DNA from: Candidatus Parcubacteria bacterium
GTDB taxonomy: Bacteria > Patescibacteriota > Minisyncoccia > Minisyncoccales > JAGLPU01
Length of the DNA stretch: 32,255 bases
NCBI GenBank assembly: GCA_023137175.1
Contig: JAGLPU010000003.1
Coordinates: forward strand, 1 to 32,255
Direction of reading: 5' to 3'
Of the stretch, positions 20,689 to 22,736 are shown piece by piece (position 1 is the first letter of the stretch; each line of letters begins with the position of its first letter). The position numbers and the translations under genes are program-made. Below the pieces are notes generated by a model. The model did no database searches, was not told the DNA's origin, and was given only the letters and a program-made list of their open reading frames with translations.

Positions 20689-21138
20689 ATGAAAGCCTTA
20701 TCTGAAAGCAAAAAAGCATATTTTGATTATCAAATCCTGGAAAAGTTCGAGGCTGGTTTGGTTTTGCTCGGCACGGAAGTAAAAGCAATTAAAACCGGAA
20801 AGATAAGCTTAAAAGGTTCATATATCATAATTGACAAAAATAATGAAGTTCAGCTGACTGGCTGCCATATCCCCCCTTACCAGCCCGGCAATGCCCCGCT
20901 TGATTATAATCCGGAAAGATTACGCAAGCTATTGTTAAAGAAAAAAGAAATCATGTATCTTATCGGAAAATCAAGAGAAAAAGGCTTGACTTTGGTCCCT
21001 TTAAGGGTATATAGTAAGAAAGGAAAAATAAAGATAGAATTCGGAATCGCTAAAGGAAAAAAGAAAGTGGACAAAAGAGAGGCAATCAAAAAGAAAGAAT
21101 TCAGACGAAAGAAAGACAGGCTGTTGAAAGAATCATAA
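20689..21138 (+). CDS. smpB: SsrA-binding protein SmpB
   Basis: The 149-residue partner of tmRNA in rescue of stalled ribosomes. The OB-fold core is clear: KKAYFDYQILEKFEAGLVLLGTEVKAI, then KISLKGSYIIIDKNNEVQLTGCHI, then KGLTLVPLRVYSKKGKIKIEFGIAKGKK. The tail RREAIKKKEFR-like (KREAIKKKEFRRKKDRLL) is the basic C-terminal helix that enters the mRNA channel. The stop TAA at 21136-21138 is followed after one base by the first base of tmRNA, so the two are in one transcript. No Shine-Dalgarno sequence precedes the ATG. Confidence 0.97.
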   Translation: MKALSESKKAYFDYQILEKFEAGLVLLGTEVKAIKTGKISLKGSYIIIDKNNEVQLTGCHIPPYQPGNAPLDYNPERLRKLLLKKKEIMYLIGKSREKGLTLVPLRVYSKKGKIKIEFGIAKGKKKVDKREAIKKKEFRRKKDRLLKES

Positions 21139-21139
21139 A

Positions 21140-21528
21140 GGGGGTGCCAGGCATCGACAGAAGTTCCTATTAAAATATGCAAGTCCAGCAATCTAAAATC
21201 TGGTAAAACTTTTAGAAACAAAATAAGTGCTAACTTATTTACAAAAGCTAAAAATACTGTTGTCAATGCTTTTGGCAGCGGCACGCTAGCTCCTGCTTGC
21301 GCCTAGCGCAGGCCATCTGCTTTATTGATTCTCAATAAATAAAACCAGGTGTCAAAACATTGAGATAGATAATTTCTGTTTCTCCGAAAATTATTGAAAA
21401 CTTTTAGAGGATAGGAATATTAAAATTTTGTCTGCTTCTTATTAATATTCCGAATTTCAAAACAGACTAAGCTTGTAGAAGTGTTTTAATGAAATTTTTG
21501 CACGCGAGTTCAATTCTCGCCATCTCCA
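21140..21528 (+). ncRNA. ssrA: Transfer-messenger RNA (tmRNA)
   Basis: The acceptor stem pairs GGGGGTG (21140-21146) with CATCTCC (21521-21527), with two G-U pairs, followed by discriminator A21528; the CCA end is not encoded. The 5' part continues GCATCGACAG. The T arm is GCGAG TTCAATT CTCGC (21504-21520). The tag frame most likely resumes at GCT 21229 and runs 25 codons to TAG 21304-21306. It begins ANLFTKAK and ends GTLAPACA. A hairpin (GCTTGCGC, loop CTA, GCGCAGGC) around the stop fits helix P5. RNase P must release the 5' end from the smpB message. A run of six T follows at 21531-21536 and may help termination. Confidence 0.95.
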
Positions 21529-21645
21529 CATTTTTTAGCTATCTTCTGTAAAATCAAGGCTTTCAAAAAAATCTTCAGCATAAAATAGCTGAGAAACAAT
21601 ATTTATTGTTCTTTTTTTAAAAAAACTTGCAATTTTCTTGTTTTT

Positions 21646-21705: not shown

Positions 21706-22200
21706 ATCAATAATCAAATAAGGGCAAAGGAAGTCAGGTTGATTGACGAAGAAGGAGAGCAAAAAGGCGTTATTGCATTGGGAGAAGCCCTGCAAATGGC
21801 TCAAGAACGCGGTTTGGATTTAATCCAAGTGACAGATAAAGTAGACCCTCCAGTTTGTAAAATAACAGACCATGGAAAATACCTTTATTCCCAGAAGAAG
21901 AAAGAGAGAAAGGCAAATAGCAAACAAAAAGTGAGCGAATTAAAAGTAGTAAGACTGACATTTAATATTTCTCAGCACGATATGGAAACCAGAGTGAGAC
22001 AAGCGGAAAAATTTCTTACTAAAGGAGACAAAGTAAGGATAGAAATGAAGCTTAGAGGACGGGAAAGAGCATTAAAACAATTCGCCGAAGAAAAAATAAA
22101 TAAATACTTAGAAGTTCTACGAGGTCTTGTTCCGATAAAAATTGAACAAGGATTAAAAAAACAGCCAAGAGGACTGACTATGATAGTCGCCAAAGAATAA
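21706..22200 (+). CDS. infC: Translation initiation factor IF-3 with AUC start
   Basis: A 164-residue IF-3 that binds the 30S subunit and checks the start codon. The conserved N-terminus INNQIRAKEVRLIDEEGEQ is encoded in frame from ATC 21706, and no ATG, GTG or TTG precedes it in frame after the stop at 21670. AAAAGGA (21694-21700) lies 5 bases upstream of the ATC as a ribosome-binding site. A TTG at 21739 would remove eleven highly conserved residues. The C-terminal domain has FNISQHDMETRVRQAEKFLTKGDKVRIEM and ends PRGLTMIVAKE. E. coli infC starts at AUU and is autoregulated because IF-3 discriminates against such starts; the same logic probably applies. rpmI follows after 3 bases. Confidence 0.96.
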   Translation: MNNQIRAKEVRLIDEEGEQKGVIALGEALQMAQERGLDLIQVTDKVDPPVCKITDHGKYLYSQKKKERKANSKQKVSELKVVRLTFNISQHDMETRVRQAEKFLTKGDKVRIEMKLRGRERALKQFAEEKINKYLEVLRGLVPIKIEQGLKKQPRGLTMIVAKE

Positions 22201-22203
22201 ATT

Positions 22204-22392
22204 ATGAAAACCCGCAAATCAATAACAAAACGATTCAAAATTACCAGAACCGGAAAAGTTCTGCGCCGACTTTGCGGCCAGGACCACTGTTTAGCTAAAA
22301 AAACAGGCAACAGAAGAAGATTAGCGAGAAAATTAGTTTTGGTATCTAAAGCAGAAGCAAAAAAAATTAAGAAACTATTACCAGGCTTATGA
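22204..22392 (+). CDS. rpmI: 50S ribosomal protein L35
   Basis: A 62-residue basic protein. KTRKSITKRFKITRTGKVLRR at the N-terminus and HCLAKKTGNRRRLARK in the middle are the L35 pattern, and it ends KKIKKLLPGL. It lies in the standard infC-rpmI-rplT order, 3 bases after infC, and overlaps rplT by four bases (ATGA). Confidence 0.97.
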   Translation: MKTRKSITKRFKITRTGKVLRRLCGQDHCLAKKTGNRRRLARKLVLVSKAEAKKIKKLLPGL

Positions 22393-22736
22393 CACGAGTA
22401 AAACGAGGAACAATTGCAAATAAAAGAAGAAAAAATGTTTTAAAACACACTAAGGGTTTTTGCTGGGGACGAAAATCAAAGTTTAAGGCAGCCAAAGAAG
22501 CTTTACTCCATGCATGGACTTATGCTTATCGGGATCGAAAAGTAAAGAAAAGAACATTCCGCCAGCTTTGGCAGATTAGAATTAATGCTGCTTGCCGAGA
22601 ACAAGGAATCACTTACAGCAGATTTATTGAAGCCTTGAAGAAAAATAAAATTGATATAGATAGAAAAGTATTATCCGAACTGGCAAAAGACCATCCGGAA
22701 ATATTCACGAAAATAGTGGAAAAAGCAAAAGCCTAA
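22389..22736 (+). CDS. rplT: 50S ribosomal protein L20
   Basis: A 115-residue 23S-binding assembly protein. The extended basic N-terminus TRVKRGTIANKRRKNVLKHTKGFCWGRKSKF and the block YAYRDRKVKKRTFRQLWQIRINAA are characteristic of L20, followed by GITYSRFIEALKK. Length is normal. Start and rpmI stop overlap in ATGA. In E. coli L20 represses this operon; no leader structure for this could be recognised here. A strong terminator follows 10 bases after the stop. Confidence 0.97.
   Translation: MTRVKRGTIANKRRKNVLKHTKGFCWGRKSKFKAAKEALLHAWTYAYRDRKVKKRTFRQLWQIRINAACREQGITYSRFIEALKKNKIDIDRKVLSELAKDHPEIFTKIVEKAKA

Follow-up and report, generated by a model that had tools for sequence, protein, structure and literature searches.

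A long tmRNA tag ending in Ala-Cys-Ala in a Parcubacteria genome in which no ClpX was found

The stretch of DNA analyzed here (the window) comprises 32,255 nucleotides of contig JAGLPU010000003.1 from a Candidatus Parcubacteria bacterium. It carries a one-piece tmRNA gene (ssrA) directly preceded, on the same strand, by smpB, the stop codon of which lies one base before the RNA. ARAGORN and Rfam RF00023 agreed on the tmRNA at 21140-21529/21531 (+), and the RF00023 match was full length (model positions 1-374) and scored 134.3 bits (gathering score 47, E 1.1e-52). The sequence of the RNA reads CUCCAC-AU at its 3' end, so that CCA is not encoded, and a G3-U70-type pair, the alanine identity pair, is present in the acceptor stem as paired from the sequence. 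The profile matches of the upstream gene show that the SmpB partner of the tmRNA is encoded in the same genome. The features are as follows.

20689..21138 (+): smpB, 149 aa (NF003843, 176.7 bits; TIGR00086, 158.1 bits)
21140..21529 (+): ssrA (tmRNA), one-piece (ARAGORN, RF00023)
21229..21306 (+): tag reading frame, ANLFTKAKNTVVNAFGSGTLAPACA (ARAGORN, RF00023, sister genome)
21229..21276 (+): N-terminal half of the tag, ANLFTKAKNTVVNAFG (periodicity test)
21286..21303 (+): C-terminal LAPACA, presumed degron end (identity between the two genomes of the genus, tag list)
21295..21313 (+): predicted 8-bp stem, GCUUGCGC / GCGCAGGC, with loop CUA (position of the RF00023 helix, pairing, fold)

Downstream of ssrA, at 21739-22736 and likewise on the plus strand, lie the genes for IF3 (Pfam IF3_N and IF3_C) and for ribosomal protein L20.

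The tag is read from a GCU resume codon at 21229 to a UAG stop at 21304-21306 and has 25 residues. The initial annotation had proposed this frame, with its Ala-Cys-Ala ending, and had named a covariance model as the means to contest it. When aligned, the model put GCU AAC (21229) on the resume GCA AAC of the family with high posterior, and the frame stands as claimed. The sister species, the only other genome of the genus compared (G001), encodes the tag ANLFTKAKTAFANAFSGATLAPACA in the same frame, and a wrong frame can thus be ruled out. The tags of the two species are identical at both ends and differ in the middle (NTVVNAFGSG in the window's genome, G000, versus TAFANAFSGA), a pattern that would be expected of a selected peptide. 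Moreover, many tags of the order share the context AATAAGT|GCN AAC TTA, which spans the resume codon and the bases ahead of it. The tag ends in ACA and not in the C-terminal LAA of tags read by ClpXP.

To place this ending, tags were collected from the order and from the phylum. In the order, 247 genomes were searched, 221 had a tmRNA, and 112 tags, covering some but not all of 47 families, were read from the better-scoring matches among those listed. A further 108 tags were read in other orders and were drawn from the 248 genomes of the phylum sample that had a match (five of which belong to the window's own order). The 220 tags were obtained with ARAGORN (135), with a regular expression (31), by eye with a translation check (52), or were added from the regular-expression output (2, G015 and G017); the tags read by eye may favour hydrophobic ends, and the ARAGORN frames outside the order were mostly unchecked. 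The common form in the order resembles ANLFxKPALAYA. None of the 112 order tags ends in AA; the penultimate residue is most often Tyr (60 tags), with Phe at this place in 13 and Cys in 5, one of Y/F/L/I/V/C is penultimate in 105, and the final residue is Ala in 98. The tag of the window is therefore odd beside those of model bacteria, but ordinary within its order. Two tags apparently end in Cys itself, ANEPSLALAYC (L075, G042) and ANLQPQTVEVC (L173, G267), in frames read by eye and checked by translation.

The initial annotation had taken the Cys near the end of the tag as the mark of a different protease preference. On a SmpB tree (a quick method, 108 rows, 48/105 inner branches weak), G033 was grouped with the window's genome and that of its sister (SH-aLRT 92) within a seven-member group of genomes with long tags (91), both values lying below the mark of 95 set by the tool. 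The other four members have Tyr where the Cys sits. Cys appears to replace Tyr, and the penultimate Cys requires at least three changes on this tree. The predicted stem, at a position where a helix is also found in the Rfam model, contains the Cys codon UGC (21298-21300) together with part of the stop codon UAG. All five penultimate Cys codons of the order are UGC, and the G of each is paired within a 7- or 8-bp helix, as G.U in G033, G043, and G096 and as G-C in the window's genome and its sister. Eleven of the 60 Tyr codons lie inside a helix of at least 6 bp, a count in which A pairs only with U by construction, so that finding A-U pairs at Tyr codons carries no weight by itself. From the pairing pattern, and from that pattern only since the fold of the stem at the 3' end of the tag was no more stable than that of shuffled sequences (z -0.09), we infer that an A to G substitution, with G.U as the intermediate pair, may have turned Tyr into Cys. 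The Cys itself, outnumbered by Tyr and Phe in the order and encoded by a UGC held in a stem with three G.U pairs, did not prove to be a sign of another preference. It is also very improbable that the Cys is functional, its thiol giving a redox-dependent recognition of the tag or a covalent attachment. Such a role would fit the recurrence of penultimate Cys through three changes and the two tags that end in Cys, but the Tyr found at the same place in the rest of the long-tag group and the paired UGC codons fit a tolerated A to G change.

Trans-translation is close to universal, and most descriptions present its tag as a signal for ClpXP. ClpX was searched for with TIGR00382 (cut-off 370.75 bits), which 10 of 14 control genomes passed in each search. 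No ClpX exceeded the cut-off in any of 30 relatives, including the window's own assembly, which is about 90% complete, and the best score was 33.9 bits. Across the phylum, only three of 286 sampled genomes had a ClpX above the cut-off. They belong to one family, have larger genomes (1.4-2.0 Mb), and are all three of the genomes searched in their order. Their tags, AETTPLAIAA, ADNTGLRALPLAA, and ADNQSLRALPLAA, have the endings LAA, LAA, and IAA. An (L/I)AA ending was thus found in 3/3 ClpX-bearing genomes versus 3/217 tags of ClpX-less genomes (Fisher 1.1e-5, the three ClpX-bearing genomes being one clade). This contrast is strong, but because the ClpX-bearing genomes form a single clade, it is one event and not a replicated correlation. 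In addition, 20 of the 105 ClpX-less tags from outside the order still end in AA, three of them in (L/I)AA, and the loss of ClpX therefore does not force a change.

These results suggest that the protease set, through the loss of ClpX, is the likely reason why the tag lacks LAA. The different protease preference proposed initially is thus borne out in one part, in that the ending is not LAA and neither the assembly nor its relatives yielded a ClpX, and not in the other, the Cys as its mark. With no ClpX found, the tag is probably read by something other than ClpXP, by way of the loss of ClpX rather than the Cys. An extensive group of bacteria with small genomes that retains tmRNA, SmpB, and ClpP but not ClpX, next to a single clade in which ClpX and (L/I)AA tags persist together, would offer a natural test of degron-reader coevolution. 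In open PubMed Central text, nothing on point was found on ClpX, tmRNA, or tags in Patescibacteria, Parcubacteria, or candidate phyla. In the one paper that concerns Patescibacteria and ClpX (PMC10768705), clpX carries APY09 locus tags, and we take this gene to belong to the host.

Alternatively, the tag may no longer serve degradation, with only ribosome rescue under selection and an ending left to drift. The ends of ClpX-less tags do vary (YLG, YAS, and EVC, for example), but the endings within the order are non-random in both their penultimate and final residues, and the two species of the window's genus share identical tag ends around a variable middle. We consider this explanation improbable.

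Candidate readers were then sought among the other proteases. ClpP was found in the window's own genome (C4; TIGR00493, 323.8 bits, over the cut-off) and, counting this one, in 232 of the 247 order genomes, which rules out the loss of ClpP as an explanation. Lon was likewise ruled out as a reader in this genome, as Lon_C (PF05362) at 0.001 had no match in it or in its sister. Lon_C matches were present in 124 of 243 order genomes; among the matches listed, most fell in frames of ~505-545 aa, which we take to be RadA-like. A strong Lon_C match (240 bits) was observed in G044 (L156), a genome with a long tag, while weaker ones were seen in frames of 834 to 899 aa in the also long-tagged G244 (66 bits in the 899-aa frame) and in a long frame in G045.

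A match to the Hsp100 lid was found in 268 of the 286 phylum-sample genomes. The Hsp100 of the window's genome (L305 449-3130, on C8; 893 aa) scored, as a whole, 1208.9 bits as ClpB (TIGR03346, just missing the cut-off of 1232.1) and 770.7 as ClpA; compared with solved structures, a copy without its first 88 residues scored 900 bits with ClpB and 765 with ClpC. This protein has SLGF between TSNIG and FRPEF, the interval that holds the ClpP-docking loop in ClpA and ClpC. Three more of the fetched loci come from the order, and they have MGF, LGF, and IGF at this position; the triplet [LIVM]G[FLY], common to these three, was found in 13 of the 26 loops read from 30 sampled loci. ClpB proper is not known to partner with ClpP. 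A second Hsp100-lid match exists in the genome, and it may correspond to a separate ClpB or ClpC. FtsH is also encoded (C5; TIGR01241, 773 bits), and Peptidase_M41, its domain, was matched in 270 of the 286 phylum-sample genomes. The score of the Hsp100, close to the ClpB cut-off, lowers our confidence in ClpP with Hsp100 as the reader and raises that in FtsH.

We thus consider it somewhat more probable than its contrary that the locus is an ordinary smpB-ssrA module, the tag of which changed in a lineage without ClpX and is now most likely read by ClpP with Hsp100. Trans-translation through SmpB and alanyl-tmRNA is a known mechanism. By homology, SmpB and the alanyl-tmRNA would enter the stalled ribosome, translation would resume at GCU, and the 25-residue tag would be added. 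This tag would consist of two parts, an N-terminal half resembling an amphipathic helix and a hydrophobic, proline-containing end (LAPACA). Without ClpX, the end would no longer be held at LAA and would have shifted to a hydrophobic residue with Ala after it, a Cys in place of Tyr being one of the tolerated substitutions. The reader would most likely be ClpP together with the genome's own Hsp100, ClpB-like in sequence and with an LGF loop, and less likely the membrane protease FtsH. Against this reading, the Hsp100 scores best as ClpB, 13 of the 26 loops lack the triplet, and certain genomes lacking a ClpP match (G002, G036, and G107) keep the same tags, although their assemblies may be incomplete.

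That the length of the tag is special, as had been suggested, was likewise not borne out, since 76 of the 105 ClpX-less tags from outside the order have at least 18 residues (ANTFISRVKTAFAGMTFAPAFA, for example). Within the order, 12 of 112 tags reach this length, all with a KAK-like basic motif, and the other 100 are under 18 residues. The first 18 residues of the window's tag displayed an alpha-helical amphipathic periodicity (p 0.044 versus shuffles). Taken singly, only 2 of the 12 long order tags gave p<0.05. For 88 long tags, 28/88 gave p<0.05 and, on repeat, 25/88 at 100 degrees, against 5 at 160 and 4 at 60 degrees. With one tag per family, the N-terminal 18 residues gave p<0.05 versus shuffles in 22 of 67 families at 100 degrees, the alpha-helical angle, in 13 at 90 degrees, and in 0-5 at the eight other angles tested. 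The C-terminal 18 residues of the same 67 families showed no peak at 100 degrees (3/67 there; 1-8 at all angles). The long tags of the phylum thus look bipartite, with an amphipathic, alpha-helix-like start followed by a hydrophobic end. No paper on an amphipathic tmRNA tag was found in open PubMed Central text. The amphipathic half suggests that the tag may have a function beyond offering its C-terminus.

In a rival reading, the amphipathic N-terminal half would send tagged proteins to the membrane, where FtsH, as the main reader, would pull on the non-polar C-terminus. FtsH is encoded in the genome and almost throughout the phylum sample, and helical amphipathicity is common among long tags. 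According to PMC9382460, E. coli FtsH has a low affinity for the ssrA tag. Nevertheless, the tags of the window's own order are mostly short, the helix test having covered long tags, and some tmRNA-bearing genomes (G313 and G355, for example) lack an M41 match at the threshold used. FtsH as the main reader is rather unlikely. In a broader and still tentative reading, nearly the whole sampled phylum may have rewired tmRNA tagging after the loss of ClpX, the tags of many families being bipartite degrons, made of an encoded amphipathic helix and an FAPAxA-like end, that would be read by a ClpB-like Hsp100 with a gained or kept ClpP-docking loop, or by FtsH.

Gur and Sauer (2008) and Ge and Karzai (2009) are reportedly the studies cited for the Lon-read tmRNA tags of Mollicutes. 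The canonical E. coli ssrA tag, AANDENYALAA, has 10 encoded residues. It shares with the tag of the window the RNA family, an Ala resume codon, an SmpB partner, and a hydrophobic end closing on Ala, whereas the tag of the window has 25 encoded residues and no LAA, in a genome where no ClpX was found. As described in PMC9382460, Mollicutes have no active ClpXP, and their tmRNA tags, which end in NYAFA, are read by Lon. On that account, they resemble the window's genome in the absence of active ClpXP, in longer tags, and in an ending other than LAA, and the precedent shows that tags can follow their readers. Unlike them, the window's genome keeps ClpP, only ClpX is gone, and Lon had no match; its tag ends in APACA, with an amphipathic, KAK-type N-terminal half. 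The aromatic-Ala ending of the NYAFA type is also absent, the Cys occupying the aromatic position, where many relatives have Y or F. ClpAP and ClpC1 act on ssrA-tagged proteins, according to PMC6274998, and so provide a precedent for the recognition of ssrA tags by double-ring Hsp100 unfoldases that partner with ClpP; the Hsp100 of the window's genome, known here from its sequence, differs in being ClpB-like overall, with an LGF loop.

Although the covariance model matched them strongly, 50 of the 112 order loci (among loci L001, L009, and L021-L130) received no tmRNA or tag call from ARAGORN, and several further ARAGORN frames are, by our reading, wrong, as they disagree with the conserved resume context. 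Annotators should thus treat its tag output for loci of this order with caution. The genome collection, which may not include the window's own genome, was also scanned with a pattern for long tags with Cys, limited to a single resume context and gap range. Of the 15 stretches obtained, ARAGORN found a tmRNA in two, L135 and L142, the tags of which are those of G033 and of the sister species, respectively.

Finally, in 108 of the 112 order loci, smpB closely precedes ssrA in the same orientation. The two genes overlap by 8 nt in 32 of the 104 loci with a located RNA start, and the smpB stop is then the UGA within the first bases of the RNA, GGGG(G/A)UGA. In these overlapping loci, 5' processing of the transcript would cut the smpB mRNA ahead of its stop.
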